DNA from: Candidatus Bathyarchaeota archaeon
GTDB taxonomy: Archaea > Thermoproteota > Bathyarchaeia > Bathyarchaeales > Bathycorpusculaceae
DNA: 64,000 bases
Direction: 5' to 3'
Assembly: GCA_029881805.1 (NCBI GenBank)
Contig: JAOULW010000002.1
Coordinates: forward strand, 1-64,000
Position 1 is the stretch's first letter; every line of letters starts with the position of its first letter. Below the pieces are notes generated by a model. The model ran no database searches, was not told the origin of the DNA, and saw only the letters and a list, made by a program, of their open reading frames with translations. This document shows positions 12,437-51,645 of the stretch, one piece after another. The translations under genes were made by a program, and so were the position numbers.

Positions 12437-12521
12437 GCGGGGGTGTCCGAGTCTGGTCAAAGGAGACAGGCTTAGGACCTGTTGCCGTAGGGCTGCGTGG
12501 GTTCAAACCCCATCCCCCGCA
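12437..12521 (+). tRNA. tRNA-Leu (UAG anticodon)
   Basis: Full cloverleaf with a long variable arm as expected for Leu. The acceptor stem is GCGGGGG/CCCCCGC with discriminator A, the anticodon loop is CTTAGGA (TAG), and the T-arm is GGTTCAAACCC. No encoded CCA. An AT-rich TATA-like stretch (AAATAAATATAAAAG, about 12389-12403) lies upstream. The large mobile region begins right after it, which makes it a candidate integration site, but no second copy of its 3' end was found at the far side. Confidence 0.96.
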
Positions 12522-12654
12522 CTACTTAAAATTGCCTGTTTGTGCCTATTTTTTAGCGGTTTTTCCTAAATAATCCCAAATTATTCCCTTTTGTTTTTTA
12601 GTTGGCTTTTGATTTCGGAAGAAGGTTTAAATTCTCGGTTTTTCCATTATTCAT

Positions 12655-17296: not shown

Positions 17297-17526
17297 AGTA
17301 GAATCCGCCTTAACTTGACTTCCACTGTTCCTGGAACTGTTGCGTGTGCTGTGTAGGGCTCGTAGAGGGGAGAACGCACTTTAAGCGTGTACGTTCCGGC
17401 TGGTACGTCGAATCGGGCCTGTCCGTTCTGATCGGTTGAAGTTTGAACGCTGTCTAGCCACACAGGTGTGTAACGGATTGGAGCCCCAGTTTCAGAGTCG
17501 GTGAGGCGTATGTTAAGGACTGCCAT
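17293..17526 (-). CDS. Small Ig-like (carboxypeptidase-regulatory type) domain protein
   Basis: 77 residues forming a single beta-sandwich: NIRLTDSETGAPI, then TSTDQNGQARFDVPAGTYTLKV, the usual signature of CarboxypepD_reg/Big-type domains. No signal peptide. It lies between an unknown gene (14-bp overlap) and the protease-like gene (4-bp overlap). In mobile elements such domains often decorate virion proteins. Confidence 0.7.
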   Translation of the reverse strand: MAVLNIRLTDSETGAPIRYTPVWLDSVQTSTDQNGQARFDVPAGTYTLKVRSPLYEPYTAHATVPGTVEVKLRRILL

Positions 17527-17998
17527 TGCCGTTTCCTCTCGAGTTTTGTGAGGGCCAGAGGTAGGGTTTTATGTCCTTTTCAACTTCGTTTTGCAGCCAT
17601 CGTGCTCCCTTTGCTGTTTCTAGGATAGGAAGAACGTCTGGGCGATGCTTTTTGAGCCACTTAGAAGCGTATCCAACGTTGAGGTATTGCTCCGCAAGGG
17701 GTTTTGGGAATTTTGAGACTATTACGCGGCTGAACCCTAAGGCTGCGAGTGCCATGCGTACTGTTTGTTTGCGCAAGGCTTCTATGCGGTCTTTTTCTTC
17801 GGGGCTGAGCTCTGGAGGATACTCAGGAGCTTGATCCGCTTGGTGCTGGGTTGTCCATCGTACCGTTTCGACAATGTACCAGTCGTGGTCAACCATGATT
17901 TGGAGGTGCGCAGCGTCGAAGGGTGCTATAAGCCCTACAACCATTCTTTCGAGCGTCTTTGCCAATATTTTTGCGCTTGCCTTGCCGACGAGGCTCAC
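17513..17998 (-). CDS. Hypothetical protein
   Basis: 161 residues, not recognised. A hydrophobic helix near the N-terminus (KILAKTLERMVVGLIAPF), a Trp/Tyr-rich centre (DHDWYIVETVRWTTQ), then charged helices and a Gly/Asn-rich tail. It is in the middle of the 19051-16164 operon. Confidence 0.6.
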   Translation of the reverse strand: MSLVGKASAKILAKTLERMVVGLIAPFDAAHLQIMVDHDWYIVETVRWTTQHQADQAPEYPPELSPEEKDRIEALRKQTVRMALAALGFSRVIVSKFPKPLAEQYLNVGYASKWLKKHRPDVLPILETAKGARWLQNEVEKDIKPYLWPSQNSRGNGNGSP

Positions 17999-18016: not shown

Positions 18017-19051
18017 TTAAGACGCCTCCTTCGGCTTTTCTTCTTCGGAGGTAGAGGGTCGTTCTCGAGTGTACCGGGTCAAAGTCAGGTTGTGTAGATT
18101 TGGTTCTGTGGTATGGGTTGTTGGATTGTTCGGTGGTGCCTCTGTCCTTTCTGTGGTTTGCGGGGTTGCAGAGGACATGCGAGCTTCAACCGTTCCTTCG
18201 AACCATTGCTTTAGGAAGTATGTGAAGGGTTCCATGACTTTGTCGATGGCTTTGGAAACGACTCTTTCAGCAGCCCCTATTTTCGCTTCCTCCAATCTTG
18301 TTTCCAAGTCTAAATCGTGCTGCTGTTGCCATTGCCTTTCAGCTTCTTGAAGCATTTTCTCCACCTCCCCTCTAGCAAGCCTAGTATCCACAAGCTGGTA
18401 GCCCATGCCTTCCACAAGCTTCTTGGCTTCTTCTACAGTCACGGGAGTTTCTGTCGTCACAACCTTGTAACCCAGTGTTTCCAAGAGTTTCTTGGCTTCA
18501 TCTTCCGCAGCCTTCACCTGCTTCAAAGAGCCCTCAATGCCATAACCTGCGATAGCAGCTTCAGGTGGAGCACCCTCTTGGGCTGGTGGTTTAACGCCTA
18601 TCGCAACGGGCATGCCTCGCCCAAAAACCCTGTTGAACTCGCGCTGGTACCATTTCAGGACGTCTAAGGCTTCCGAGGGAGTAATTGTCGGAGTCTTCTC
18701 CGCTTCTATTCCCTTGAGGGCCTCGTCGAGAGCCTTTGTTTCGGGCGGCTTAGGCTGCGCTGTTTCTCGGGCCGATTTGGTTGGAGTGTTCTCTGCTTCA
18801 CTTTTCGGGCTTGTTTCCAACTTTGGGAAGAGAGGTTGAGGCTTGAAAGCCACCATCTCGGGGTCACTCCATATTTCCCCGTAGTATTTTTGGTACCTGT
18901 ACCTAGTCAGCCCCGAATCCTGAATGGCTTTGTTGACGCTTTTTCCCTCTTTGACAAGGCTTTTGAAAAGCTCAATTTTCTCTTCGTCACTCTCTCTTTC
19001 TATCGTTCCGACACCGTTCTGGTCTTCCGTTCCGACGTCGTTCTGAGACAT
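18017..19051 (-). CDS. Coiled-coil protein with N-terminal helix-turn-helix
   Basis: 344 residues, first gene of the operon. Residues about 24-60 resemble a short HTH (FKSLVKEGKSVNKAIQDSGLTRYRYQKY). A Pro/Thr/Lys-rich linker follows. The middle has a duplicated unit (EAKKLLETLGYKVV and EAKKLVEGMGYQLV), then a long coiled coil and a Thr/Pro-rich tail. A scaffold or packaging role would fit; no catalytic motif. An element-wide operator precedes its ATG by a few bases. Confidence 0.65.
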   Translation of the reverse strand: MSQNDVGTEDQNGVGTIERESDEEKIELFKSLVKEGKSVNKAIQDSGLTRYRYQKYYGEIWSDPEMVAFKPQPLFPKLETSPKSEAENTPTKSARETAQPKPPETKALDEALKGIEAEKTPTITPSEALDVLKWYQREFNRVFGRGMPVAIGVKPPAQEGAPPEAAIAGYGIEGSLKQVKAAEDEAKKLLETLGYKVVTTETPVTVEEAKKLVEGMGYQLVDTRLARGEVEKMLQEAERQWQQQHDLDLETRLEEAKIGAAERVVSKAIDKVMEPFTYFLKQWFEGTVEARMSSATPQTTERTEAPPNNPTTHTTEPNLHNLTLTRYTRERPSTSEEEKPKEAS

Positions 19052-19310: not shown

Positions 19311-21077
19311 CTAGTCGCTTGATTTTCTCCTTAATTCTTTGAAATCTATGACGTCGGGGCTCATTTCCACAAGCTTCTGTAGCTTTTCAGCTGTTTCAAT
19401 CATCTTTGTCGTGGTGCTGTATGCCTGCACGACGTTCTCACGTTTGGCGGCTTCCTTCAACGCAGCGATGTCAACCTTTAAGCTTGTGAGCCCCCAGCTC
19501 ACCCATTTCCAGTTGAATCTGGTTGGTTTCAGTGGCAGCTTCTTGAGGTATTTTTGCATGCTTTTCTCGAGGATTATGCCCTTAGCCTCGTCTACGACGA
19601 TGGCGCGGTTGTCTTGTAGTGGCATATTCCAAGCGATGAGATCGTCGAATCGGGCTCGGTACGGTGTCGGGTCGATGCCCTCTTCGCTTAGTTCCTTGCT
19701 GAACTCTCTCCACAGCTCCTCATACTCGTGGTCGCGGAGAACCTTTATGACGGGCTCTAGGCGTCTAGCCTCGTGCATTCTTAACGTTTCAGTCTTTGCC
19801 AGCAACCTTTCTTTAACGTCTTCAAGCCATTCGATTATTGATGTTACGTGAGTGTAGACAGCTACTGAGTTGCGTTTTTCAGCTTGCCTCTCAGATGCTT
19901 TCAGCCATTCTTGAACTCTCTGAGCGATTGATGATATCCATTTCCAGTCTAATGGTGCTGTTACCTTCACTTCTGGTATGGCCTCCTCAGCTTCTTTTAC
20001 GGCTTTCTCGATTTCAGGTTCGGTTGGGGTTGGAACCGCAAGTTTTTCATACTCCTCCTTCAAGACGAGAACTGTCAGAACAGCGCCTCTCTTGTTCGTG
20101 ATTTTCATGAGTTGATACTTCTCCAGTTCGGTGTAGGGATGCCCGTGGACAATTGCGACTGTGTCGCATGTTTCTTCGTCATGGACTGGAATAACCAATG
20201 TGGGCTCCTTAAACCCTGGCAGCAGCTTCTTCTCGGGCTTGGCAGTTACGTTGACATGCAAAAGCCTCACGTAGCCCCGTATTTCTTCAGGCAGCTCTTC
20301 AATAGGAAGCCCAGGTGGAAGCTTTAGCTTCCTTATTTCTTCTCGGAGTTTTTGTATTTCGTCTTCCCATTTTTCTCGTTCTCGGCTTATCCTTTCCTCT
20401 GCTGCCTCTTCTACGACGCCGAGTTCTTCGGCTAAGCTTTTGACTTCAGCTTTGTAACGCTCCCATTCTGAAAGTGGGATAGCCCGGGTCATCAGCAATT
20501 CGTCTCGGGCGCGTAGCCAATAGTTTCCTTCTTTAAGCTCGTCCTCTTCAGGTGTGGGCGCCTCAGGATTCTCTTTAAAGAATAGCTCCAGTGCCTTGTC
20601 TAGGATTTCTCTGCGAGTGGGCATATACCCTTGTCCCGTGGTTTCTGGAGTTTTAGGGCGAGTTTCTACCGATTTCTTGATTAGTTCAAGTCTTTTCTGA
20701 AGTTTTTCGCGTTGTTCAAGCCAATCGATTGACTCTATTTTGTCGGCTTTGGGCTCGACTCTTCCAGCCCAGAGGTGAGATTGGACAAACTTGTCCCATT
20801 CTTCGTCTCCGTAGAATCTTCTTGTGCCATAGCGATATACTCTTTCGGTTGAGCCGTGTTTTTCGATCAGTTCGTTAATAGCCTTGATGTTTCTTTCCAA
20901 GCGCGCAATCCACTCTTCTGGGGTTTCCGTTTCAAGCTGTTCTTTGGCTTTCTGCCAGAAGTTCCCTCTCTTCAGAAAGGCTTCTTCCTCAGGGTCGTGG
21001 ATCCACCAGATGTCAAGGGTTCTGTCGTAGAGGTAGTGAGCCTTGTTGCGGATTTCGTCTTCAGTGGGAACTATCAT
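19311..21077 (-). CDS. Large helical protein with internal duplications
   Basis: 588 residues, not recognised. Two duplications are visible. PTEDEIRNKAHYLYD...GNFWQKAKEQL (residues 3-48) is repeated as PTRREILDKALELFF...GNYWLRARDEL (about 152-195). DWKWISSIAQRVQEWL... (about 375-425) is repeated as NWKWVSWGLTSLKVDI... (about 535-585). A coiled coil lies at about 220-250. Last gene of the operon with the PCNA/GINS fusion (4-bp ATGA overlap), so a role in replication or as its partner is likely. Confidence 0.65.
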   Translation of the reverse strand: MIVPTEDEIRNKAHYLYDRTLDIWWIHDPEEEAFLKRGNFWQKAKEQLETETPEEWIARLERNIKAINELIEKHGSTERVYRYGTRRFYGDEEWDKFVQSHLWAGRVEPKADKIESIDWLEQREKLQKRLELIKKSVETRPKTPETTGQGYMPTRREILDKALELFFKENPEAPTPEEDELKEGNYWLRARDELLMTRAIPLSEWERYKAEVKSLAEELGVVEEAAEERISREREKWEDEIQKLREEIRKLKLPPGLPIEELPEEIRGYVRLLHVNVTAKPEKKLLPGFKEPTLVIPVHDEETCDTVAIVHGHPYTELEKYQLMKITNKRGAVLTVLVLKEEYEKLAVPTPTEPEIEKAVKEAEEAIPEVKVTAPLDWKWISSIAQRVQEWLKASERQAEKRNSVAVYTHVTSIIEWLEDVKERLLAKTETLRMHEARRLEPVIKVLRDHEYEELWREFSKELSEEGIDPTPYRARFDDLIAWNMPLQDNRAIVVDEAKGIILEKSMQKYLKKLPLKPTRFNWKWVSWGLTSLKVDIAALKEAAKRENVVQAYSTTTKMIETAEKLQKLVEMSPDVIDFKELRRKSSD

Positions 21078-22864
21078 TCAAGCACACCGTATTCGAGAAG
21101 CTTGTATTCTATTGTGATGGGCTGTTTTTCCATGTCCATGAATGGAGTTTGCGGGTTTGATGAGCTGTGCGTGTTGGCGACACCTTGTTCAATGACCTCT
21201 ATGTATCGGTGTTTTTCGAAAATCTCTGCGTGCTGCGTAGGGATGACTGCTTCTTCATGAGCTCTGAAGGGTCCGTACACTTTTCGGTCTGTACCTATGA
21301 AGCGCACCATGTCCCTTAAGAAGCGGACTCTTGCGTAGCCTGTCGGCACCGCTGGCGGCTTAACACGTTCAAGCTCTTCAACAACTTGTTTAACCCACCA
21401 TCTTCCGCCAGGACCAAACTCGACGATTCCCTCCTTTTGCAGCCCCACTAGAATGTCGTTGAGCCCCTCGATGCTGTAGCCATCTTCTTCAAGCTTCCTC
21501 TCAATTGTCTGTATGATAACTTCCTTTCTGAACTCTTTGTTCAGCTCTGTCAGCACGGACAAGACATTGTCTCTTGTAAGAGGTTTCAAACGCTTGATTT
21601 CCTCGGCTTTCTCAACGGCTTCTTTTGGTTCCGTAGGCTTTATGGTCCAATAGCCTCGCATGTCCACTGCGTAGCCGCCCGGTCTCCTTGTCGGCCAGGG
21701 CTTAGACTCAACCAATCCTTTCGCCTTTAAACCGAGCAGCATGTTATGGAGGGGCTCAGTCAAGTACTCCCTAGCCAAGAAGCTCTCAAGCTCGGAGCAG
21801 CCGACGGCGTCTGTATCCGCAGCCTCCAAGAAGTCTCTTATCGCGGTGAGCACTACATCTTCTGTTAAAGGTTTCAAAACTGGGGGTCTTTCGGGTAGAA
21901 AGTATAGTTTCTTCCATCCAGCCTCTCGTATATTCAGTTTTCCTTCTTTGACGAGTTGTCTAAGCATCTCTTCAACTTTGGCTATTTCGTAGCCCTCTTT
22001 TGCTAGGGCTTCTTCAATCTCTCCAGATGAAACTGCCGTGGGAGCTTTCTTCTCAACTTGTCTGAGGATATCCTCTTTCGTTAGTGCCTTAAGCAGTCTT
22101 AGCTTTTCTAAGAAGCGGGCTGAATCGTCATAGTTTGGAGCTACATACGCCTTGAAGCTAACCGTTCCAAATTGGTATTCTATGCCGAGTGGCATGCGGT
22201 ACGCTCTAGCGCCCAGTATCCTAACCACGGGCCAGCCTTTCCGGAGGAATATTGTAGGTGGAAGAAACTGCTCAACCAGATGGATTTTGTAGCCTGCGCC
22301 TGCGTCTTGCACAATCTCTAATCCAAAGAGGTCTTTGAAAGCCAGCCAAACCTCCTCGTTGAAGGCTGAAGCCACTGCTTCGCGCTTAGCAAGTGTCCAA
22401 GCAAAGCCCACAGCGTCGGCTCCGGCTTTTCTGGCTTGGGCTAGAAAGCGCTTTAGGGGACGCCCATCGAAAGCTATTCTGTTGGGAAGGTCTATTTTAA
22501 ACTCTGGAGCATCGAAGTCAGTCTTTTCTTCTTCAAATTCTCCTATTTCAGTCTCAGCGAGCATTATTTTGTTGTCCTTTCTTTTGATGACGGCTCTGTT
22601 TGCGCCTGTGGCTCTTAAGGCTCTGATGACGCCTTTTACCTTGCTTCGGTTGCTAAGTATGCCGAAGGCTTCTTTGTCAATGCGGTAAAAATAGAAGGAC
22701 TGTGGAGGAGCCGACAGAGTATAGGCTGTGATCCTCTCCGAATCCATATTTCTTGCAACAAGACCTCCTGCAGTAAATTTTACGACAGCTTCGTCCGTGT
22801 TTGTGAAAAGCAGGTCGAAGAACTTCTCAAATTCGTCCAAGTAGTCTTCGACTAGAAGGCTCAA
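21074..22864 (-). CDS. PCNA-like clamp fused to three winged helices and a GINS B-like domain
   Basis: 596 residues. Residues 1-250 resemble a sliding clamp: DEAVVKFTAGGLVARNMD matches the PCNA first-domain strands and R-x-M-D motif, FKIDLPNRIAF the inter-domain region, and MPLGIEYQFGTVSFKAYVAP the PCNA C-terminal pattern (MEYxx-G-x-xxFxLAP). Three winged-helix repeats follow (about 260-330, 335-415, 418-490). Residues about 505-555 (RVRFLRDMVRFIGTD, VYGPF, ... AVIPTQHAEIF) match the GINS B domain, seen in archaeal GINS51. A clamp/CMG-scaffold fusion is unusual; it probably recruits polymerase and helicase to the element origin. Domain calls are by eye. Confidence 0.68.
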   Translation of the reverse strand: MSLLVEDYLDEFEKFFDLLFTNTDEAVVKFTAGGLVARNMDSERITAYTLSAPPQSFYFYRIDKEAFGILSNRSKVKGVIRALRATGANRAVIKRKDNKIMLAETEIGEFEEEKTDFDAPEFKIDLPNRIAFDGRPLKRFLAQARKAGADAVGFAWTLAKREAVASAFNEEVWLAFKDLFGLEIVQDAGAGYKIHLVEQFLPPTIFLRKGWPVVRILGARAYRMPLGIEYQFGTVSFKAYVAPNYDDSARFLEKLRLLKALTKEDILRQVEKKAPTAVSSGEIEEALAKEGYEIAKVEEMLRQLVKEGKLNIREAGWKKLYFLPERPPVLKPLTEDVVLTAIRDFLEAADTDAVGCSELESFLAREYLTEPLHNMLLGLKAKGLVESKPWPTRRPGGYAVDMRGYWTIKPTEPKEAVEKAEEIKRLKPLTRDNVLSVLTELNKEFRKEVIIQTIERKLEEDGYSIEGLNDILVGLQKEGIVEFGPGGRWWVKQVVEELERVKPPAVPTGYARVRFLRDMVRFIGTDRKVYGPFRAHEEAVIPTQHAEIFEKHRYIEVIEQGVANTHSSSNPQTPFMDMEKQPITIEYKLLEYGVLE

Positions 22865-23712
22865 ATCAGAGTCTCCGCCTTTGCCACTCTTGCCTTTTCC
22901 CTTAGCCTCTCGTACTCTCCCTCTTCAGCGTCTGGGTTTGAGCTTGAAGAACTGAGATTGCTTGATGATTCCAGATACCATTCTGAAGGGTATTCTCCAA
23001 GCTTCTTTTCGATGAGCTCCATAGCCTTGTTTACGGCTGATTCAAGCTCCGACTCCTTTTTCTCTCGAGCCCTGACGAGAACAAGATTCAGAGCCTTCAA
23101 CGCTTCGTAGAGGTTAGAACAACGAATCCTCTGCATGGTGATGGGTTCTTCCTGAGTTTTAGGAGAGCCATTGCTGTTTGGGTTTGAATGACTCGTGGGT
23201 AGTTCTTGTTTGAAAATGGCCAGGACGGGCGGGTACCAGCCCTTCTCCTTCTGCAGTTCATAGAACCTTTTTACAGCCTCTTCATAGTTGGCTGTTTCGA
23301 AAACAACTGTGTTATCGTGCACCAAGATCCACTTGATGGACGATGTTGTTTTCATCATTTCGAGAAGCTTTTTGGCTTTCTGAATTTCTTCTTCGGTTAC
23401 TCCATAGATCTCTTTCAGAATCTTTTCGCTGACTCCAGCCTTAAGAAGAGAGGCAATATCCTCTATTGACCCTGACGCTCTTTTTTCTAAAACTCTAAGC
23501 AAACTGCGTATCTTGTCTAAATGGGCTCTTACTTCTGAGATCATGTTGGCAGCTAAGAACTTCTTTGCCTCGCCAACTACCCTTTCGATGTCGATCAGCA
23601 GCGACTGCAACTGACTGCCTGAAAACGTCCCATCAACTTTAGCTTCGCTAATAGGCTCTTCAAAATATTTTTCAAGACGGATTTCCCAGTCCGCCTTTCC
23701 CTCTTCAGCCAT
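22861..23712 (-). CDS. Hypothetical helical protein of replication operon
   Basis: 283 residues from the ATG at 23712, chosen because AAGGAGG precedes it; a longer frame starts at 23757. Mostly helical and charged, with a central alpha-beta segment (IKWILVHDNTVVFETANYEEAVKRFYEL) and a Ser/Asn-rich tail. No motif recognised. It overlaps the PCNA/GINS fusion by 4 bp and the upstream gene by 8 bp, so translation is coupled. Confidence 0.6.
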   Translation of the reverse strand: MAEEGKADWEIRLEKYFEEPISEAKVDGTFSGSQLQSLLIDIERVVGEAKKFLAANMISEVRAHLDKIRSLLRVLEKRASGSIEDIASLLKAGVSEKILKEIYGVTEEEIQKAKKLLEMMKTTSSIKWILVHDNTVVFETANYEEAVKRFYELQKEKGWYPPVLAIFKQELPTSHSNPNSNGSPKTQEEPITMQRIRCSNLYEALKALNLVLVRAREKKESELESAVNKAMELIEKKLGEYPSEWYLESSSNLSSSSSNPDAEEGEYERLREKARVAKAETLI

Positions 23713-24037
23713 ACCCGTATGCCTCCTTGGATTCATGCATCTCTTTAAGGCGTTCAAACTCTCTCTGCCTGTCTTGTGTCAGCCTCTCAAAAGCGCGTTT
23801 AACCAGTCTGAACTCCATTTGGTCTTTGGGGTAGTAGGCTCTCATGAAGATGGGCATGCCATTTGAGCCTTGGGCGAAGTCAACTGCAATATTCTTCAAG
23901 GTTTTGGTTTCGCCTGTGAACTTCACTGGCTTGTTTCTTGTTGTCTTGTCTTCTACGACCCAGCATGTGGAAGCGTCGTAAAGAACTGCGAACTCGCTTT
24001 CTTCGATTACTGTCCAGCCCCAACTCACGGTTGTCAC
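23705..24037 (-). CDS. Hypothetical protein, first gene of replication operon
   Basis: 110 residues with a GTG start preceded by GGAGAT. An N-terminal beta-rich part (VSWGWTVIEESEFAVLYD ... CWVVEDKTTR) is followed by charged helices. Its fold looks like a small single-domain DNA-binding or OB-like protein, but I recognise no family. It is divergent from 24111-24371. Confidence 0.55.
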   Translation of the reverse strand: MTTVSWGWTVIEESEFAVLYDASTCWVVEDKTTRNKPVKFTGETKTLKNIAVDFAQGSNGMPIFMRAYYPKDQMEFRLVKRAFERLTQDRQREFERLKEMHESKEAYGYG

Positions 24038-25159: not shown

Positions 25160-26977
25160 GTGTTACCAGTCAACCAAGTGTTAGTGGGCGACTCCGTTAA
25201 TGTAATGAAAGGTTTTCCAGAAGAAAGTATCGACATGGTAATGTTTTCGCCGCCCTACTATGGGCTTCGCAATTATGGTGAGGCTACAGAAACAGTGTGG
25301 GGTGGTGAGGAGAACTGTAGCCATGAATGGATTGGAGAGAGAATGATTCTTGTTCATGAAAACCGCAATTTTTCAAGAGGGACACAAGAAGATGTCCGTG
25401 GAGATAAGCCAACAACTTACATTAAGAAGTATGATGATAGAAAAGCCGGCTTTTGTGTTAAATGTGGCGCGTGGAAGGGGCAGCTTGGTTTAGAACCTTC
25501 ATGGCAAATGTATGTTGCGCACATGGGCGAAGTCTGCCGAGAATTGAAGCGTGTTCTGAAAAAGACTGGAAGCATGTACATTGTGCTTGGAGATACCTAC
25601 GCTGGTTCTCATTGTGGCAAAGGCGATAAACGCCTTAAACCCAACAAACAGAAAGCTCAATTTCTATATGAAAAACCTAGTCCTCAAGCAAACATTACCG
25701 ATTATCAGCCTAAGTGTTTGATAGGTATTCCTTGGCGTGTAGCTTTCGCCTTAATAGATGATGGCTGGGTTTTGCGTGAAAGAATTGTTTGGCACAAGGG
25801 TAACGCAATGCCTGGGAGTCAGAAGGATAGGCTAACACAAACTTGCGAGATGATATTCCATTTTGTAAAGAACACTGGAAAGGCGTTGCTTTGGCGAAAC
25901 GAGCTGACAAGCGAATGGCTCACCGAAAGACCGAAGCAAGTTTACTTTCATGTTGAAACTCGCGAGTTGAGAGATGAGTGTCAGCCGAAGGAGGAAAGGT
26001 ATGCTGTTGACGAGTTTGGCAGTAGGCATCTGGTTTGGAAACCATTGTGGAGAGGCTTCGACTACTACTACGAGCTTGACGCAATTCGTGAAGCGCCAAA
26101 ATCATTACGCCCCTCTGGGAACAAGGCGCGTAAGCCATCATTACAACCAAACGGCAAAGGTCATGTAGGTAGATGTATCCCTTGGATTCCTTTCAAAAAT
26201 CCTAAACATCCTCTTTTAGGCAAGAATCTTGGAAACGTAACCTCTGAGCGTGTCAAGGCAAACATTGAGCATTTCGTTCCGAAGGGAAGTGGCGGACATT
26301 ACGCATACGGAGGCTTAGACTCAAAAGAGGGTAAGCATGATCATCCTTCAGGCAAGAATCCAGGCGATGTGTTTCAAACAAACAAGAAGCCGTATGTGGG
26401 AAATGACCCGCATAGAATGCGACTTAAAAAAGAACAATACCTTGCATTAGACTCTTCTAGGCCGATGGACTTGTCACATCCCAAGGGTAAGAATCCAGGC
26501 GACGTTGTTCTGACCAAGCATGACTTAGCTGTTAACCGTGTTGGAAACCTTAGCTACACAGACCCTCTTCACGTTAAGGCATATAACATTAGGGGAAAGA
26601 ACCCTGGTGATGTGATAAAATGGGCTAATGTTCCAGGGCAAGCTCAGCAAGGCAATTTCGGGCATGGAGGCACGCATGGAAATCTTTTCAATCATCCAGA
26701 TGGTAAGAACCCCGGAGATTTCTGGAGCATCAGCACTAAACCGTTTAAGGGCGCACACTTTGCCGTCTATCCAGAAGCCATCTGCGTTAAGCCTATTCTT
26801 TCGAGTTGCCCTCATGAAGGGATAATATTAGATCCTATGTGCGAAAGCGGAACTACACTGGCTATCGCCAAAAAGCTTGGCCGCAGATACATTGGAATAG
26901 AAATTAACCCTAAATACGTCAGTATTGCCAATGAACGTTTGCTCACGATTAGTCCCACCAAACCGCTCATCTCCTAG
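25160..26977 (+). CDS. Site-specific DNA methyltransferase (N4-cytosine/N6-adenine) with repeated GKNPGD motifs
   Basis: 605 residues, GTG start. Catalytic motif IV is FSPPYYGL (about residue 30) and the SAM-binding motif is DPMCESGTT (about residue 558), the beta-class order (catalytic before SAM site). A CxxC is at about 98-101. The motif GKNPGD, normally present once before the SAM motif, occurs in five versions at about residues 354 (GKNLGN), 398, 443, 479 and 515, spaced 36-45 residues. The repeats may be target-recognition modules. No restriction partner is adjacent, so it is probably a protective orphan methyltransferase of the element. Confidence 0.85.
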   Translation: MLPVNQVLVGDSVNVMKGFPEESIDMVMFSPPYYGLRNYGEATETVWGGEENCSHEWIGERMILVHENRNFSRGTQEDVRGDKPTTYIKKYDDRKAGFCVKCGAWKGQLGLEPSWQMYVAHMGEVCRELKRVLKKTGSMYIVLGDTYAGSHCGKGDKRLKPNKQKAQFLYEKPSPQANITDYQPKCLIGIPWRVAFALIDDGWVLRERIVWHKGNAMPGSQKDRLTQTCEMIFHFVKNTGKALLWRNELTSEWLTERPKQVYFHVETRELRDECQPKEERYAVDEFGSRHLVWKPLWRGFDYYYELDAIREAPKSLRPSGNKARKPSLQPNGKGHVGRCIPWIPFKNPKHPLLGKNLGNVTSERVKANIEHFVPKGSGGHYAYGGLDSKEGKHDHPSGKNPGDVFQTNKKPYVGNDPHRMRLKKEQYLALDSSRPMDLSHPKGKNPGDVVLTKHDLAVNRVGNLSYTDPLHVKAYNIRGKNPGDVIKWANVPGQAQQGNFGHGGTHGNLFNHPDGKNPGDFWSISTKPFKGAHFAVYPEAICVKPILSSCPHEGIILDPMCESGTTLAIAKKLGRRYIGIEINPKYVSIANERLLTISPTKPLIS

Positions 26978-27851: not shown

Positions 27852-27898
27852 TCGATACTTTTGTATGTAAAGTACAAAGAAATTAGGTGACTGCATTA

Positions 27899-28606
27899 AT
27901 GACCTCGCAAACGAATCAGCTTCAAGTCTATTCCGCCGGAGCCGTTGCTCCGCCTCTTCAAAAAGCCATCGATGTTTTCGAGAATAAGTTTGAAATACGC
28001 TGCAAGTTGACGGTTGGCAAGCCAAGTAACCTTCTGGCCGCGATAGCCGTATCTAAGCAAGGCGATGTCATCTCGTGCGGAGCTGAATACGTTTTAGACG
28101 AGGCAGAAGACCGTGGATTAGTCGTCAAAGGTTCAAGAAGGAGTATGGGTTTTCGGAGATCAGTCATCATTGTTCCCATAGGAAACCCCGCGAAAATTAC
28201 TTCTCTGCAGGATTTGTGTCGAGAGAACGTTCGAATTGGAATAGCCGTTGATGGATGCTTGAAGGGCGTATGGGACGATATTGCAAGTAAGGCTGGATTG
28301 ACTGACCAGATCAGGCGAAACATCACCCATCATGCGGATGCATGCGGTTCGCTCATGGGCTTGATTCATCAGGATAAGGTTGACGCCATATTCGGTTGGA
28401 ATGCATTCCAATCTGTGTGGCCTGATACTTGCGAAGTGATCGAGCTACCTTCTGACCTTCAAGTCTTCAGGAGCACGGTAGTAGCCATGGTTTCTTACAC
28501 TGGAGATGCCAAGCTATCTCAAAAATTCATCGATTTCCTAACCTCAGATGAGGTGAGAAAAATTTATTCTGACTACGGCTGGGTTCATAAGCAACAGGAA
28601 ATTTGA
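27899..28606 (+). CDS. ModA-like substrate-binding domain without signal peptide
   Basis: 235 residues from the ATG at 27899 (GGTGA upstream; an in-frame GTG is at 27887). LQVYSAGAVAPPLQKAIDVFENKF and CKLTVGKPSNLLAAI match the N-terminus of molybdate/tungstate-binding ModA/WtpA proteins, as do SVIIVPIGNPAKITSLQDL and the C-terminal FIDFLTSDEVRKIYSDYGW. There is no signal peptide or lipobox, so it should be cytoplasmic, acting as sensor rather than transporter receptor. It converges on the ABC permease genes and has the 46-bp operator-like repeat upstream. Confidence 0.8.
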   Translation: MTSQTNQLQVYSAGAVAPPLQKAIDVFENKFEIRCKLTVGKPSNLLAAIAVSKQGDVISCGAEYVLDEAEDRGLVVKGSRRSMGFRRSVIIVPIGNPAKITSLQDLCRENVRIGIAVDGCLKGVWDDIASKAGLTDQIRRNITHHADACGSLMGLIHQDKVDAIFGWNAFQSVWPDTCEVIELPSDLQVFRSTVVAMVSYTGDAKLSQKFIDFLTSDEVRKIYSDYGWVHKQQEI

Positions 28607-28612
28607 TAGAGA

Positions 28613-29362
28613 TCATTCAAGTCTTTTTTGAAGCACTTTAGCCGCTATCACCAAGAGCACAAAAGAGAATAGGGCAAGAGCAAGAATATCGAGCAAGTAT
28701 GTGAAAGTAACCGCTGAATCATTCATAGAAGTCCTCAATGCCTCAACAGAATACGTGAGAGGCAAGAAACGAGCGACAACCGACAATTGTGAAGGCATAA
28801 GCTCCAAGGGAACAAAGGTTCCAGCAAGAAAAGCCATGGGAAATCGCAGAAAGTTAGAGAGCATCTGAGCCTCAGGAACCCACTTTGCATAGGCAGAAAC
28901 CAGTACACCGAGTGCTGAAAAAGTCAACGAAGAAAATGCAATGGCGATGAAAACCAGCATAGGGTTCGCTACAACAGTTCCAGAGACGATGGATAATGGA
29001 ATAAGAATCACGGTTGCAAGGACCAACCCGAAGAAAAAGCCTGCCACAGCTTTTCCAAAAAGCAAAGTGAAGAATGAAACAGGCGCCGCAAGTAGCCTCT
29101 CAAACGTGCCAGTCTGCTTCTCAAGGACTATGGCCACGGCTTCAATCGAGGTGGTCCCAAATAATATCACAAGGGAAGTTAGTCCTGAGACAATTAAGCT
29201 GGAATTCATTTGGCCAGCAATAGAAAATGCGAGGAACAATGAAATAGGCATTAACAAACCGTATGTGAAATTCGGAGCCTTAAAATAGTAAACTTTCGCG
29301 TCTTTTTTAGCAATGTAGAACGCTTTTACGAAACTATCAACCCACTTGTTTGAAGCAGCCAT
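28613..29362 (-). CDS. ABC-2 type exporter permease
   Basis: 249 residues, six membrane helices, ABC-2 family pattern: LEKQTGTFERLLAAPVS (the conserved E-x-x-x-GT-x-x-LLAAP segment), GLVLATVILIPLS, and LPLTYSVEALRT near the C-terminus. It lies 26 bp after the second permease gene 29389-30126, and the two probably form a heterodimeric channel with the ATPase encoded upstream. Confidence 0.9.
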   Translation of the reverse strand: MAASNKWVDSFVKAFYIAKKDAKVYYFKAPNFTYGLLMPISLFLAFSIAGQMNSSLIVSGLTSLVILFGTTSIEAVAIVLEKQTGTFERLLAAPVSFFTLLFGKAVAGFFFGLVLATVILIPLSIVSGTVVANPMLVFIAIAFSSLTFSALGVLVSAYAKWVPEAQMLSNFLRFPMAFLAGTFVPLELMPSQLSVVARFLPLTYSVEALRTSMNDSAVTFTYLLDILALALFSFVLLVIAAKVLQKRLE

Positions 29363-29388
29363 CTTTCACAATTCTCCCTGAGGCGTTT

Positions 29389-30126
29389 TTAGTGAATCGT
29401 TCTCTTAAGAATCAAAACCGCTGCTGTAAGAAAGAAGACAGAGAACAAAATCAGGGCTGCCGAGTCCAAGAGAAACAATTGAGAAACTATCTGGCCTGTC
29501 ATAGCCTGCTGCATCATGTCAACCGCGTATGTGAGTGGAAGCAGATAGGCTATGAGTTGAAGAACGTTCGGCATAGTCGCAACTGGAATGAGCACTCCAC
29601 TCAAGAAGACCATTGAAACGCGGAGAAGTGTTGCAGGGGGCATAGCTTCGGGTATATCTCGAAATGGCGCCGATATGCACGCACCCAATGCCGAAAAAGC
29701 AAATGACGAAAGTATGATCCCAAAAGCGAAAAGCAAGGGATAGGTGAGAGTAGCTCCGGAAAGCGGTATGACAATTAATGAATAAGCCAGTGAAAGGACT
29801 ACGCCGAAAAAGAACCCTCCTAATGCCTTGCCAACTATTATCGTAGTCAATGAAACTGGGGCGGCCAGCAACCTGTCAAAAGTTCCCTTTGCCCTTTCCA
29901 ACGGCAACGCAATGGATTGAATTGCTCCAGCGCCAAAAAGCGCCGCCATCGCCACAAGACCCGGTATAGTCGAGGAGATCTCTGTGGGTCTTCCCACCGA
30001 GAAAGCCAGATAAATGATTGCTGGAAGAAACAGTCCGAAAGTGACGTTTGGCCACTTGAAAAAGTATACCTTTGCATCTTTCTTAGCTATGTGAACTGCC
30101 TGGATTATGCTCTTCGTCTTAACCAC
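29389..30126 (-). CDS. ABC-2 type exporter permease
   Basis: 245 residues, six membrane helices, paralogous to the neighbouring 28613-29362. ERAKGTFDRLLAAPVSLTTI and LPLTYAVDMMQQ are the family signatures. It overlaps the ATPase gene by 8 bp. Exported substrate unknown. Confidence 0.9.
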   Translation of the reverse strand: MVKTKSIIQAVHIAKKDAKVYFFKWPNVTFGLFLPAIIYLAFSVGRPTEISSTIPGLVAMAALFGAGAIQSIALPLERAKGTFDRLLAAPVSLTTIIVGKALGGFFFGVVLSLAYSLIVIPLSGATLTYPLLFAFGIILSSFAFSALGACISAPFRDIPEAMPPATLLRVSMVFLSGVLIPVATMPNVLQLIAYLLPLTYAVDMMQQAMTGQIVSQLFLLDSAALILFSVFFLTAAVLILKRTIH

Positions 30127-31102
30127 TACCTCCGCCTTCTTTCTTGACTGGCTCCTTTTCAGTTGCCATAACTTCTGGACTCAATCCTGTGATTTTGGCA
30201 AAAGCGTCTTCCAAGCTTGGTTTCAACGTGTTAATCGATACGACCTTCAAACGTTTCTTGCGCGCAAAATCAATGATGATTGGCACCACTTCTGAAACGT
30301 CCTCAACATAAAGCCTAAGCTTGTCACCAACTCTTGAAACATGGCTTACAAAGCGTAACTCTTTAAGCTGACTGGTGAATTCCTGCGCTGGACTAAACGA
30401 GACCTCGATGATGCGATGCTCTTCCACGGTTGCCTTGAGCTTTTCAGGATTGTCTAACGCAACTATTTTCCCTTGATTGATTATGGCGACACGTTGACAC
30501 AGTTGGTCGGCTTCTTCAATGTAGTGTGTGGTGAGAAAAATAGTTGCGCCGCCTTCATTCAGCTCTTTGATGAGATTTCGAATCATTCTGGAGCTTTGAA
30601 CATCGAGGCCGGTTGTGGGTTCGTCCAAAAAAAATATTGCAGGTTTATGAATTAAAGCAGCGGCTATTGTCAGACGTCTCTTCATTCCCTTGGAAAAATT
30701 GCCCACGTGGTCCCTACGGCGCTCATAAAGTCCAAAGAGTTCAAGGGACTCCTTCGTCCTTTTCTCTCGCTCTTTCTTGGGTACGCCGTAGAGTTGAGCC
30801 GCAAAAATGAGGTTATCCCAAGCGCTCATTTCATCATAGAGGTTAGAAACTTCTGGCACCAATCCAATGTGCTCTTTAGCTGTGGTCGATTCTCGCAAAA
30901 TATCGAAGCCGGCGACCGCTGCTGCGCCAGAAGTTGGTTTCGTGAGTCCTGTGAGCATTCGCAATGTGGTCGTTTTCCCAGCTCCATTCGGACCCAAAAA
31001 GCCAAAGACTTCGCCGGATTTGACCTCAAAAGAAACATGATCGACCGCTAACAATTTGCCATAATACTTGGTTAGATTTGAAACCTCTATTGCGTTATCC
31101 AT
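30119..31102 (-). CDS. ABC transporter ATPase (DrrA/CcmA type)
   Basis: 327 residues. Walker A GPNGAGKTT (about 39-47), signature FSKGMKRRLTIA in place of LSGGQ, Walker B IFFLDEPTTGLD, and H-loop LTTHYIEEAD. The C-terminal extension (about 225-310) is the DUF4162-type domain of DrrA-like exporter ATPases. First transporter gene in the operon with two ABC-2 permeases. Upstream is a small metal-binding-like protein and the HxlR-controlled promoter. Confidence 0.94.
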   Translation of the reverse strand: MDNAIEVSNLTKYYGKLLAVDHVSFEVKSGEVFGFLGPNGAGKTTTLRMLTGLTKPTSGAAAVAGFDILRESTTAKEHIGLVPEVSNLYDEMSAWDNLIFAAQLYGVPKKEREKRTKESLELFGLYERRRDHVGNFSKGMKRRLTIAAALIHKPAIFFLDEPTTGLDVQSSRMIRNLIKELNEGGATIFLTTHYIEEADQLCQRVAIINQGKIVALDNPEKLKATVEEHRIIEVSFSPAQEFTSQLKELRFVSHVSRVGDKLRLYVEDVSEVVPIIIDFARKKRLKVVSINTLKPSLEDAFAKITGLSPEVMATEKEPVKKEGGGSG

Positions 31103-37196: not shown

Positions 37197-37282
37197 TGCT
37201 CAATACTGTTGAGCATTTATAAGAATGGTTGAGCAGAACGATTTGCTCAATATTATTGAGCATTTATATAGTTGATTGAGCA
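37197..37282 (+). promoter_or_regulatory. Operator array of AbiE-type toxin-antitoxin
   Basis: Two 19-bp palindromes TGCTCAATA-C-TGTTGAGCA-type (37197-37215 and 37244-37262), each followed by a TATA-like CATTTATA, plus two half-sites TTGAGCA (37229-37235 and 37276-37282). The array precedes the antitoxin start at 37302. This is the classic arrangement for autorepression by the antitoxin. Confidence 0.8.
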
Positions 37283-37301
37283 AGATTTTCTGGGTGACCG
37301 T

Positions 37302-37976
37302 ATGTCTGCCATTAAAAACATTTTTGCGCCTAAGTCTTCTAGGGTTTTGCGTGTGTTTTTGGTTAACTTCAGTAAGGATTGGGATGAGAGGGAGATTGCG
37401 GTTGAGGCTGATGTGTCTAGTGGGTTGGCTCACTACGTTTGCAGAACGCTTACAGAGTTGGGGTTTGCCGCTCGGAACGAGCAGAATAGGCTTATTTTGG
37501 TGGATGCATTGAGGCTGTTGAAGAGGTGGGCTGCTTATCACCAATATGATCGCATGAACAAGTTTGTGGATTATTTCACTTTTGAGAGGGAGATAGACAG
37601 TTTTGTAAGTAGGTTTGCAGAGCTGGAGTCAGAGTATGCTGTTTCGGGCTTGGTTGGGGCTTGGTTGGTGGCGCCTCATGTACGGCCAGTAGATGTGCAC
37701 TTGTATGTGGCAACTGGGAAGGTGGCTGAGGAGATTGCTAAGAAGCTTGAGTTGAATCCTACGCCGCGGGGTGGAAACGTGAAGTTCGTGTTGCCTTATG
37801 ATGAAGGGGTCTTCTATGGGATTAGTAAGGTGAGCGGTGTTAAAGTGGTCTCGGATGTTCAGCTTTATGTGGATCTTTACAATTTTCCAGCGAGAGGCGA
37901 AGAGGCGGCTTCTCATCTTTTGGAGCATATGCTCAGAGAGTGGCAAAAGAAGAGGGAAGTAGAACAGCATGTATGA
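37302..37976 (+). CDS. AbiEi-like antitoxin / winged-helix repressor
   Basis: 224 residues from the ATG at 37302 (GGGTGACC before it; the frame is open to 37272). The N-terminal winged helix (RVLRVFLVNFSKDWDEREIAVEADVSSGLAHYVCRTLTELGF) is followed by an alpha-beta domain (SGLVGAWLVAPHVRPVDVHLYV ... YVDLYNFPARGEEAASHLLE) like the AbiEi C-terminal domain of type IV systems. It overlaps the putative toxin gene by 8 bp and has a palindromic operator array upstream. Confidence 0.72.
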   Translation: MSAIKNIFAPKSSRVLRVFLVNFSKDWDEREIAVEADVSSGLAHYVCRTLTELGFAARNEQNRLILVDALRLLKRWAAYHQYDRMNKFVDYFTFEREIDSFVSRFAELESEYAVSGLVGAWLVAPHVRPVDVHLYVATGKVAEEIAKKLELNPTPRGGNVKFVLPYDEGVFYGISKVSGVKVVSDVQLYVDLYNFPARGEEAASHLLEHMLREWQKKREVEQHV

Positions 37977-38769
37977 TCGGGATGCGACTGAGACTTCTAA
38001 AGGTGCTCTGGTTGAATTATGCAGGGTTCTTCGTCAGTATAGGCATGACATGGTTCTTGCGGGCGGTTGGGCTCCATATTTTCTTGTGAAGGACTTTTTT
38101 GACCATTGCGGATCTGTTGACATCGACTTTGTGTTAAGGCCAAAGGTTGTCGAGCGTTATGAGAACATAAAGCAGATTCTAGAAAGGATAGGATACAAGC
38201 CTACTGAGAGCGTTTTCCGTTTCGAAAGAACAGTCGCTTCTTCTAAAACTGGCATTAAACATAGAATTGAGGTAGATTTTTTAACTGAGCCTGAAGGTGC
38301 TGAGAAGCTTCCTGAGGACTGGTTTGCTTCAGTTCAGAGGGATTTGAAAGCTTGTGTAATAGAGGGCTGCAGCATAGTTTTCAAGTATAATCATGAAGTT
38401 GGGTTTAGCGCTGTCATGCCAGGCAACGGCGAAGCTTCAGTTAGATTTAATTGTGCAGACATTGTTGGCTCGCTTACTATGAAGGGTTTAGCCCTATACA
38501 GGATGAAAGACAAGGACTGCTATGACATTTATGCTGTAGGCGGGTTCTGTGGAGGAGGACCAAAGCAAGCTTCAGATGCGTTTATGCATGTTATAGGCGA
38601 GAAGGAATCCGAGAAAGTCACATTGGATGCTTTAAGTGAAATCAGAGATGCTTTTGCTTCAGAAACATCTTATGGTCCAAGCGCCGTAGCCAGATTCGTT
38701 GGCTCAGAAGATGCAAAGATCGATTCGTACATGCGAATTAAGACATTTCTTCAAGGCTTGTCAGTTTGA
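37969..38769 (+). CDS. AbiEii-like nucleotidyltransferase toxin
   Basis: 266 residues. VLAGGWAPYFL and CGSVDIDFVLRP supply the GG-W and DxD motifs of the MNT/AbiEii nucleotidyltransferase fold. IEVDFL gives the third acidic residue, and MKDKDCYDIYAV resembles the conserved K-x-x-D-x-x-D-x segment of AbiEii. Such toxins modify tRNA or other targets and cause growth arrest. Encoded directly behind its antitoxin, so a stabilisation or abortive-infection module of the element. Confidence 0.75.
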   Translation: MYDRDATETSKGALVELCRVLRQYRHDMVLAGGWAPYFLVKDFFDHCGSVDIDFVLRPKVVERYENIKQILERIGYKPTESVFRFERTVASSKTGIKHRIEVDFLTEPEGAEKLPEDWFASVQRDLKACVIEGCSIVFKYNHEVGFSAVMPGNGEASVRFNCADIVGSLTMKGLALYRMKDKDCYDIYAVGGFCGGGPKQASDAFMHVIGEKESEKVTLDALSEIRDAFASETSYGPSAVARFVGSEDAKIDSYMRIKTFLQGLSV

Positions 38770-38990: not shown

Positions 38991-40169
38991 ATGTTTAAGC
39001 AAACCTCTGTGTTTAAGAGAGATGGGCTTCATAAGCTGGATTTTGAGTATGTGCCTTCTCGTCTGCCGCATAGGGAAGAGTACCTTGAGAAGCTTGTAAA
39101 GTTTTTCAGAGTAGCCATTGACCAGCCAGGCATGCTAAGCGAGCGAATCTTGATAACAGGCGAAAGCGGAACGGGCAAGACGGCTACGGCGAAAAAGGTT
39201 GGAGATGCTCTAGAGAGAATCGCGAAGAATCATGGCATAGATTTGATTTACGCTCACATTAACTGTCGCACAACAAGCGGAAAATTCGGCTTGGTTCAGA
39301 ACATTATTCGGCAGGCTGCGCCCACACTTCCTTTAAGGGGCTACGGCCCCATCGAGTTGCTTCATGCTTTGTGGGATTACTTGAACGAGCACAACAAGTT
39401 TCTCATCTTAACCCTAGACGAAATCGACTACTACTTAAGGCGGACTGGAGAAGATATAGTTTATGAGTTGACTAGGCTGACCGACGCCATAACTAATGTT
39501 CCTCAAAGAATAAACTTCATGTTCATAGCCAGAGACCATTCATTTATGAAGGACATGAGTCAAGAAACCCTAAGCAGGTTCAGACCGCAAGAAAGACTGG
39601 AGTTTCCGCCATACTTGGAAGATCAGCTTCTAGACATTTTGAAAGAGCGTGTGAAGGAAGCTTTTCGAGAAAATGCGGTTTCAGACGAAATCATAACGTT
39701 CATCGCCAGAAACACGGCTAAATACGGCAATGGAGACGCAAGATACGCTCTGCTGCTTTTGTTGTCCGCTGGTTTTGCTGCAGACAGAGATGAGCAGTCA
39801 GCCATTTTGCCTGAGTATGTTAGGGAAGCCCAAGAAAAGACGGACCCGAAGATAAGGGATGAAGACGTGACAATGCTGTCAGACGACGAAAGGCTTGTGC
39901 TCCTAGCCCTTGCCCGTCATCTCAAAAGAGAAAAAGAAGCAATCTTCCTTCCTCTGGAAGATGTTGAGTCTTCTTATCGCGTTGTGTGCGAAGAATACGA
40001 TGTGGAGCCTGTTGGAAGAGTCATGCTTCATGCTTTAGTTAAACAGTTGAAGGCTGCTGGTCTGATTACTCTGAACGAGAAAATTGAGCCCGGGCTTAAC
40101 GGCGTCAAAGCAGAAGTCTTGGAAAAGTTTCTTGTCGACCTGTTAAAGAGGAAGGGGCCTGATGCTTAA
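38991..40169 (+). CDS. cdc6: Orc1/Cdc6-type AAA+ replication initiator
   Basis: 392 residues. Walker A GESGTGKT (57-64), Walker B LTLDEID, sensor region FMFIARDHSFMKDM, arginine finger area FRPQERLEFPPY, and sensor 2 GNGDARYALLLL. The C-terminal winged helix (about 300-390) binds origin DNA. N-terminal PHREEYLEKLVKFF matches the family. It overlaps the wHTH gene 40162 by 8 bp. As it lies in a mobile region, it probably starts element replication; origins are usually near the gene. Confidence 0.92.
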   Translation: MFKQTSVFKRDGLHKLDFEYVPSRLPHREEYLEKLVKFFRVAIDQPGMLSERILITGESGTGKTATAKKVGDALERIAKNHGIDLIYAHINCRTTSGKFGLVQNIIRQAAPTLPLRGYGPIELLHALWDYLNEHNKFLILTLDEIDYYLRRTGEDIVYELTRLTDAITNVPQRINFMFIARDHSFMKDMSQETLSRFRPQERLEFPPYLEDQLLDILKERVKEAFRENAVSDEIITFIARNTAKYGNGDARYALLLLLSAGFAADRDEQSAILPEYVREAQEKTDPKIRDEDVTMLSDDERLVLLALARHLKREKEAIFLPLEDVESSYRVVCEEYDVEPVGRVMLHALVKQLKAAGLITLNEKIEPGLNGVKAEVLEKFLVDLLKRKGPDA

Positions 40170-40449
40170 ATTAGACGGAGAAAAGAAGCGATTCATCGAG
40201 GCAATTGGAAATCCATCAAGGTTAAAGATTCTGCTGGTCTTATGGAAATCCGATAAAGAGCTAACAGTGTACAAAATATGCCAACGCACAGGACTTGGAA
40301 TAAGCGCAGTGTCTCGTCACCTACGCAACCTAGTTGAGGCTAGACTGGTTTCAAGAAGGATTTATGGAGAAATTCCTTTATACAGCATCGGCAGAGAAGA
40401 TTCCAAGGCGAGAGCTTTAATCGATTTTTTCGCTAAAATGAAATTTTAA
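40162..40449 (+). CDS. ArsR-like winged-helix regulator
   Basis: 95 residues. FIEAIGNPSRLKILLVLWKSDKELTVYKICQRTGLGISAVSRHLRNLVEARLV is a complete winged helix of ArsR type; there is no obvious metal site. It overlaps orc1/cdc6 by 8 bp, so it is co-transcribed and may regulate initiator expression. Confidence 0.82.
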   Translation: MLKLDGEKKRFIEAIGNPSRLKILLVLWKSDKELTVYKICQRTGLGISAVSRHLRNLVEARLVSRRIYGEIPLYSIGREDSKARALIDFFAKMKF

Positions 40450-42876: not shown

Positions 42877-42974
42877 AAAGGATCAACTGATTAGACTTTA
42901 TCAGTTGTGCTATAAAAACTTGGATACCGAGCCTTTAGGCATACGAAAATTAAGTCAAGCAGGCATGACTCGCT

Positions 42975-43454
42975 TTGGACCCGCAGCAGATGCTTAACAA
43001 CGTGATTATCGCGAGAGCCTACAACAGCGACCATCAAAGCTTCCTAATCGATAATCTCTTCAAGATTTGTTCAGAGGAAAACGTCAAGCTCGTGGTGGTT
43101 GACTCCATGATTAGCCACTTCAGAGGAGAATACATCGGGCGAGAAAACTTGGCTGAACGCCAGCAAAAACTCAACCAGTGCTTACACAAATTGCTTAGGC
43201 TGGCTGAAATCTACAACATAGCCGTCGTAGTGACAAATCAGGTGCAAGCTAATCCAGCTCAAGGCTTCGGCGACCCAAATAGACCAGCGGGAGGCCATGT
43301 CTTAGCCCACGCCTGCACACACAGAGTATACATAAGAAAAGCTAAGGCTGGCACAAGGGTAGCCACGGTCATCGACTCACCGTATATTCCAGAGTCAAAG
43401 GAATACTTCATGATCACGGAGAAAGGCATAGAAGACGCCCCAAGCACAGATTAG
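42975..43454 (+). pseudogene. radA: C-terminal fragment of RadA recombinase
   Basis: 159 residues from a TTG. LDPQQMLNNVIIARAYNSDHQ, VKLVVVDSMISHFRGEYIGR (Walker B region), LAERQQKLNQCLHKLLRLAEIYN and the DNA-binding loop NPAQGFGDPNRPAGGHVLAH match the second half of archaeal RadA (about 320 residues) very well. The N-terminal domain and Walker A are missing. In frame upstream come a TGA and a TAA, so the 5' half is lost. It may be a recombination scar or an expressed truncated form; the motifs present are well conserved. Confidence 0.8.
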
Positions 43455-43484
43455 TAAAAACGGAAATGCAGTAAGAAGCTGTCT

Positions 43485-43625
43485 GTGGTGCTAACTGTTC
43501 TCAACAGAGTTTCAGTGGGCTTAGCCTACATAGTCAGCCGAGGAAACATAACGGCAACAATCATATGGTTCGCCATAACAACAGGCGCCACAGCAGGACT
43601 AAGCCACTACAAAGAAAAAGATTAA
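43485..43625 (+). CDS. Possible 46-residue membrane protein
   Basis: Starts with GTG at 43485 and ends at a TAA. The sequence is one hydrophobic helix (ITATIIWFAITTGATAGL) flanked by charged ends, and it ends HYKEKD. No strong ribosome binding site. It lies between the RadA fragment and a minus-strand gene. Confidence 0.35.
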   Translation: MVLTVLNRVSVGLAYIVSRGNITATIIWFAITTGATAGLSHYKEKD

Positions 43626-43670
43626 CCTCTGATTTGGCTATTGATTGTTAATTTCGTCTCTTTTGTCTCT

Positions 43671-44018
43671 TCAAGTTTTAGATTCGAGCAAGCTGTCCGT
43701 TGAGTCTTTCATCTGAGTCCATGTATCAATGAATGCTTCAATTCTTTTGTGGCTGTAGGGAGAACCCTTGTCTAATCGCTCCGTCCAAAATCTTAAAGCA
43801 AGAGCCATCAGGACGCTTAGTTTCATCATTTCGTTCAAGCTGAACCATATAGGTTTGACTTTGTTAGTTTCTTCTGTTTTTCTATGTGTTGACTCCATCC
43901 TGATGTAAAAAATAGCATTTGGATAAGGGTCTGGTGGATTAGGGTCTATTCCAGCGATTAGTTTAATCTCATGTGTCTTCGTTTTCTTGGAAAATTCTTC
44001 AACCAATTTTTTCCTCAT
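43671..44018 (-). CDS. Hypothetical protein
   Basis: 115 residues, not recognised. A beta-rich N-terminal half (HEIKLIAGIDPNPPDPYPNAIFYIRM) is followed by helices (MMKLSVLMALALRFWTERL). It lies 53 bp downstream of the zinc-ribbon gene on the same strand. Confidence 0.55.
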   Translation of the reverse strand: MRKKLVEEFSKKTKTHEIKLIAGIDPNPPDPYPNAIFYIRMESTHRKTEETNKVKPIWFSLNEMMKLSVLMALALRFWTERLDKGSPYSHKRIEAFIDTWTQMKDSTDSLLESKT

Positions 44019-51641: not shown

Positions 51642-51645
51642 TCAA

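Follow-up and report, generated by a model that had tools for sequence, protein, structure and literature searches.

In the 64,000-nucleotide stretch of Candidatus Bathyarchaeota DNA analyzed here (the window, corresponding to contig C24 of the 2.2-Mb source genome G000), a minus-strand gene (21074..22864) encodes a 596-residue protein in which a PCNA-like clamp region is followed by three predicted winged helices and a domain resembling the B domain of the archaeal GINS subunit Gins51. Our preferred explanation, to which we assign a probability of roughly 0.55, is that this fusion protein is an element-specific, strongly diverged PCNA-type clamp subunit with C-terminal docking modules, used in replication of an integrative element with machinery borrowed from the host. 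The observations from which it starts are the domain order, the PCNA N domain, the GINS-B-like fold, and the placement of the gene in a conserved operon of what appears to be an integrative element that encodes a Cdc6/Orc1 itself. The architecture of clamp, winged helices, and GINS-B-like domain is genuine and apparently undescribed. A sequence-only reading of this DNA had named no described protein that joins sliding clamp and GINS parts, and no description was found in the open literature, many subscription papers being outside its scope. The published accounts of Bathyarchaeia viruses and proviruses that we examined leave a GINS fusion unmentioned; in one, a sliding clamp is listed but not described further.

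Gene structure and the clamp region

The gene uses a TTG start at 22864 and stops at 21074, and it overlaps both of its neighbors, the upstream gene by TTGA at the start and the downstream gene by ATGA at the stop. A second genome, G033, from another genus of the same family (contig JAGTQT010000017.1, "Candidatus Bathyarchaeota archaeon"), encodes an 847-residue homolog at the same operon position (L026:3691-6234, minus strand), with start and stop overlaps of the same length at matching positions. Given the overlaps with both neighbors and the recurrence in a second genome, the open reading frame (ORF) is a real operon gene and not a chance frame.

The N-terminal clamp domain (residues 1-117; 22514..22864, minus strand) was recognized by phmmer, profile, AlphaFold, and Foldseek analyses. 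A phmmer search of the PDB matched Thermococcus kodakarensis PCNA1 over residues 10-201 (E 7e-5), a profile of the two homologous fusion proteins matched PCNA with E 1.7e-6, and a profile-profile comparison with 21 PCNAs of the host lineage, Bathyarchaeia, gave E 3.6e-6 and a probability of 87%, only over 68 N-terminal columns. An AlphaFold run whose alignment included PCNAs modeled residues 1-117 with PCNA strand order at a predicted local distance difference test score (pLDDT) of mostly 76-92. The top Foldseek matches of this clamp model were PCNA and 9-1-1 clamps, a test that is partly circular because PCNAs were already in the alignment. A PCNA-free model of low confidence (overall pLDDT 50), whose alignment contained just the two fusion proteins, still returned mostly PCNAs as its best Foldseek matches, along with Gins51 (3anw, 5ghr) and winged-helix proteins. 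An N-terminal processivity-fold domain is present in the fusion protein.

Residues 118-255 (22100..22513, minus strand) comprise a linker and a probable PCNA-like C-terminal clamp domain, assigned from the PCNA alignment, which extends to about residue 200, and from a motif. The order, the motif, and the predicted strands of this segment agree with a PCNA C domain. The motif, MPxGI-G-F-AY-AP, is conserved in the homolog and largely kept in a genomic remnant described below; the closing motif reads MPLGIEYQFGTVSFKAYVAPN. A complete two-domain clamp is likely but not proved, because the C-terminal half fits the PCNA pattern yet fails stand-alone tests. The proposal that residues 1-250 follow the PCNA pattern therefore stands for the N domain, by E values from 7e-5 to 1.7e-6 and by Foldseek, and for the C domain it agrees with motif and strands, not statistically. 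Neither Pfam PCNA_N nor PCNA_C was reported at E ≤ 1 for the window protein, and in hmmsearch with a host-lineage PCNA profile the two fusion clamps scored only 3.9 and 8.2 bits, as against a best score of 7.1 bits in 2000 shuffles. Since these scores lie near the shuffle maximum, the clamp assignment rests on the other tests.

Two predicted helices of the clamp region are basic: residues 73-87 contain five lysines or arginines and no acidic residue, and residues 135-152 contain five with one acidic residue. Seven of the positions (R73, K77, R81, K138, R139, R145, and K146) are identical in the homolog despite ~40% identity in this region. By analogy with PCNA, both helices would face DNA. With archaeal PCNA, as represented by T. 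kodakarensis PCNA1 (PDB 3lx1/6knb), the fusion clamp shares the N-domain fold and sequence pattern, a linker-like segment, the basic DNA-side helices, and the terminal motif MP..I....G...F..Y.AP. It differs in its ~20% identity to Bathyarchaeia PCNAs, in C-domain insertions, and in ~340 additional residues that make up the three winged helices and the GINS-B-like domain. Unlike archaeal PCNA, it is encoded on an integrative element, in a genome that retains its own PCNA gene, at G000:C10:116395.

Winged helices and GINS-B-like domain

The three winged helices anticipated from the sequence were recovered both in the predicted structure, as a helix-helix-helix-wing pattern occurring three times, and by repeat alignment. 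They lie in tandem within residues 256-500, can be aligned with one another, and each opens with LK[PA]LT. Winged helix 1 (residues 256-327; 21884..22099, minus strand) was modeled at pLDDT ~56-81 and shows weak similarity to the ArgR DNA-binding domain; winged helix 2 (residues 328-412; 21629..21883, minus strand) is the best conserved of the three, with 72% identity to the homolog; and winged helix 3 (residues 422-500; 21365..21601, minus strand) reaches pLDDT 89. The homolog has four winged helices; the last two, duplicates of winged helix 3, lie in identical tandem copies of ~159 residues, each a winged helix plus a coiled-coil linker.

The C-terminal domain (residues 510-557; 21194..21337, minus strand) matches Pfam Gins51_C (PF22090) over residues 513-552 with E 1.2e-6 and 28.7 bits, above the cut-off of 27; the corresponding domain of the homolog scores 26.3 bits, slightly below it. 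In Foldseek, the predicted fold superimposes on the Gins51 B domain of PDB 5ghr (5ghr_B) with a root mean square deviation of 1.5 Å over 53 columns and a template modeling score, TM(target), of 0.84, and 3anw was matched as well. The assignment of residues ~505-555 to a GINS B domain is thus upheld by both the Pfam score and the 5ghr fold. The domain has in common with the B domain of Gins51/Gins15 (PDB 3anw, 5ghr) its fold and the motif VRFL.D....G.D.K.YGPF.....A..P. The differences are the missing helical A domain, the low score, and the attachment to a clamp, and the D(V/I)PAI segment of host Gins51 reads DMVRF in the fusion protein. Because winged helices, and not an A domain, precede the B domain, we do not class the protein as a GINS subunit.

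The genes for PCNA, PriS, and Gins15/51 are often clustered in archaea, from which a direct PCNA-Gins15 interaction has been proposed (PMC2643942), and in several Bathyarchaeia genomes we found PCNA and Gins51 matches ~3.5-6 kb apart. Gins15 also forms a bridge between GAN and DP1, a subunit of PolD (PMC6741145). The gene clustering, the proximity of PCNA and Gins51, and this bridging make a fork role for the GINS-B-like domain reasonable. The module may bind an authentic Gins51 partner, GAN/Cdc45 or DP1, or may just as well serve for protein binding in general.

Distribution and divergence

The clamp gene is very rare: among 257 Bathyarchaeia genomes, two carry an intact copy and one remnant was found. 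This remnant, 29 codons on contig C25 of the source genome (L027:9796-9882), is ~65% identical to clamp residues 223-251 and occupies a small space between chromosomal genes; a relative that had integrated earlier probably left it behind. Searches of genome contigs for relatives returned only the G033 contig. The same architecture, which the sequence-only reading had suggested looking for in archaeal viruses, was not found there. IMG/VR gave no relatives when searched with the clamp and two neighboring genes and no match when scanned with the host PCNA alignment, phage and plasmid collections held no relatives of the fusion protein, and a viral structure library yielded generic winged-helix matches and some PCNA or clamp matches, with no recognizable protein of the same architecture.

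Between the window and G033, parts of this gene and the end of the upstream gene are diverged. DNA identity in the flanks is ~83%. In protein, identity is ~39-46% for the clamp and for winged helices 1 and 3, 72% for winged helix 2, and 82% for the GINS-B-like domain together with the tail. The pattern would be explained either by allelic exchange or by rapid divergence that, for example, fits the protein to different host partners. We considered a single recombination swap of 21342-23173; the identity inside is patchy (72% in winged helix 2, ~40% in its neighbors). Given that patchiness, fast local divergence is just as possible as a recombination swap.

The element carrying the fusion gene

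The block from 17289 to 40449 is syntenic with the G033 contig at ~77-87% nucleotide identity, interrupted by regions found in only one of the genomes. Homology to G033 and to a third genome, G002, ends at ~40442-40449, beyond which G033 continues with cobalamin-synthesis genes and G000 with other genes. One gene block in different chromosomal surroundings indicates an integrative element, so the mobile-element location supposed from the sequence is borne out, as far as synteny can tell. The putative element encodes a Cdc6/Orc1 replication initiator (38991..40169, plus strand; Pfam Cdc6 domains) distinct from the two other Cdc6/Orc1 proteins of the genome. A 95% identical copy is present in G002, and the next best match among 31 sampled genomes of the family is ~38% identical. 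As only the G002 copy is close among these genomes, this is not the usual chromosomal initiator. The element-type Cdc6 is common to three genomes.

Possible roles of the fusion protein

According to the preferred explanation, residues 118-255 would complete the clamp, and a ring on DNA would be closed either by three copies of the protein or by copies mixed with host PCNA. The C-terminal modules would keep element DNA and a host replisome factor near the ring. The origin would be opened by the element Cdc6, with the MCM helicase, polymerase, and clamp loader borrowed from the host, and the fused clamp would favor replication of the element.

Several observations weigh against this explanation. 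The C-terminal clamp half is not significant alone in profile tests. AlphaFold with host PCNAs modeled it badly and at low pLDDT, in a run whose alignment by MAFFT misaligned the clamp C domain (splitting the PCNAs into fragments gave poorer alignments). The proposed structural check returned the clamp N fold and the GINS B fold but a poor clamp C domain. The clamp may be dispensable, as G002 has the element-type Cdc6 and no detected clamp. In Pfam scans covering most element ORFs, neither MCM, GAN/Cdc45, or polymerase nor a clamp loader (RFC) turned up, and the search for a partner with a PCNA-interacting protein (PIP) box came up empty, the motif being absent from 25 element proteins. Finally, Gins51_C occurs on other carriers: in one or two copies of 33-68 bits in the 730-850-residue frames examined, which are SBP_bac_5 peptide-binding proteins, and at 56 bits in the middle of a 528-residue coiled-coil protein (L073:2658-4244, plus strand), so that the 28.7 bits of the fusion protein fall below the scores in transport and coiled-coil proteins.

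Gins51_C matches were present in 141 of 151 Bathyarchaeia genomes, including the usual Gins51 of ~180-230 residues and the 730-850-residue frames. The SBP_bac_5 proteins that bear the domain have a hydrophobic N terminus and a terminal membrane helix. Long proteins with C-terminal matches in G113, G116, and G148 were first read as further fusions and are actually exported peptide-binding proteins. The same fold forms the C-terminal domain of the primase subunit PriS (PMC2861644). PriS and the SBP_bac_5 ends resemble the fusion protein in placing a similar small domain on the C-terminal part of an unrelated protein, and differ from it in the carrier and in lacking a clamp. On these domain matches, Gins51_C is a mobile module in Bathyarchaeia; because it occurs in transport proteins, a coiled-coil protein, and PriS, Gins51_C alone does not imply helicase contact.

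The element may have fused PCNA with a Gins51 B domain, both products of the archaeal replication gene cluster, into one ring subunit, so that the host replisome (GAN, PolD, or Cdc45-MCM-GINS (CMG)) physically holds the clamp, steering replication to the element; we put this forward only tentatively. As a special case of the preferred explanation, the GINS-B-like domain could dock on host CMG and fix the clamp to the advancing helicase. The fold match to the Gins51 B domain of 5ghr, the closeness of PCNA and Gins51 genes on host chromosomes, and the published proposal of a PCNA-Gins15 contact (PMC2643942) speak for such docking, which we nevertheless regard as unlikely in view of the promiscuity of the domain (transport proteins; PriS, PMC2861644), the absent GINS A domain, and the failure to find an element MCM or GAN. 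On the same grounds, the earlier suggestion of a physical link to a CMG-type helicase was not sustained for the ORFs scanned. Alternatively, the protein could be a DNA-bound scaffold, partition, or packaging protein with a clamp-derived fold and no closed ring, its GINS-B-like domain being a generic adhesive module like that of the exported peptide-binding proteins. The weak clamp C domain, the GINS-B-like domains of exported transport proteins, the other operon genes of unknown function, and a divergence that is much faster in the clamp and in some of the winged helices than in the flanks would all suit such a protein. Against it, the terminal strand motif and the basic helices on the DNA side have been kept across 40% identity, and we consider it rather doubtful.

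Another reading is a DNA-tracking clamp that serves transcription rather than replication. As with phage T4 gp45, a precedent for a sliding clamp in transcription (PMC2988020), the ring would slide on element DNA, and its tandem winged helices would bring in or switch on host RNA polymerase, so that expression is coupled to replication. The winged-helix matches do include chains of the RNA polymerase III pre-initiation complex and TFIIIC TauB, but they are generic and come from a low-confidence model, no transcription role is known for a GINS-B-like domain, and no element-encoded transcription-factor partner was identified; a transcription clamp therefore seems improbable to us. The likeness to gp45, itself the clamp of a mobile element and one that brings machinery to that element's DNA, is a functional analogy only, as no sequence relation was found, and we know of no docking domains fused to gp45. 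It is very improbable that the protein acts as a decoy, entering or blocking the rings of host PCNA and thereby slowing host replication or defense for the benefit of the element. The clamp is strongly diverged, both relative to host PCNA and from one element to the other, as host-element conflict would produce, yet a decoy would have no need of the winged helices and the GINS-B-like domain.

A clamp and a Gins51-type B domain in one natural protein constitute fusion-type evidence for the proposed PCNA-Gins15 contact (PMC2643942) and offer a single construct for testing it. The element is also a case of an archaeal element with its own clamp in a host that retains its PCNA. The reuse of the GINS-B domain as a module calls for caution in annotation by the Pfam Gins51_C family.

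Neighboring genes and additional observations

The fusion gene is flanked on the minus strand by operon genes of unknown function. Upstream lie a 298-residue gene (22861..23757), in which, relative to G033, the N-terminal 200 residues are conserved and the C-terminal 100 diverged, and a 110-residue gene (23705..24037) with a homolog in the G033 element. The downstream 588-residue gene (19311..21077) is 93% identical in G033; its product contains repeated W-rich units and is matched weakly and in part in three other Bathyarchaeia genomes. Two further element genes on this strand, of 344 (18017..19051) and 161 residues (17513..17998), likewise of unknown function, are syntenic in G033. An N6/N4 DNA methyltransferase gene (25160..26977, plus strand; Pfam N6_N4_Mtase, E 7e-37) is partly syntenic. 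Regions of the window that the G033 element lacks contain ATP-binding cassette (ABC) transporter genes (27887-31102) and an AbiEi/AbiEii toxin-antitoxin pair (37272-38769).

Shared synteny ends in a small region (40172..40449, plus strand) that reads as a helix-turn-helix-type protein and is the probable right edge of the element. No integrase was recognized among the ORFs scanned with Pfam. A tRNA-Leu (TAG) gene (12437..12522, plus strand), after which the G+C content is higher, is a possible integration site or left edge. It was not adopted as the attachment site: the tRNA is intact, no partner repeat of its end lies within the window, and the flanks of a copy on contig C5 have no matches to element proteins. 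That copy is an exact 26-bp match to the tRNA-Leu 3' end with the rest of the tRNA absent (G000:C5:62604-62629; L078, L080:12605), and it has the look of an attachment scar left by some element.

Further Gins51_C domains or motifs at the membrane-proximal C terminus of exported ABC peptide-binding proteins were located at L074:2701-5193(-), L077:2873-5293(-), L024:8261-10444(+), L023:9738-11921(-), and L025:1-1978(-). Beside the element, genes for an OLD-type ATPase, an Eco57I-type methyltransferase, an SNF2/PLD helicase, and a HerA-like ATPase occupy 40765-55320, which is probably a defense region.

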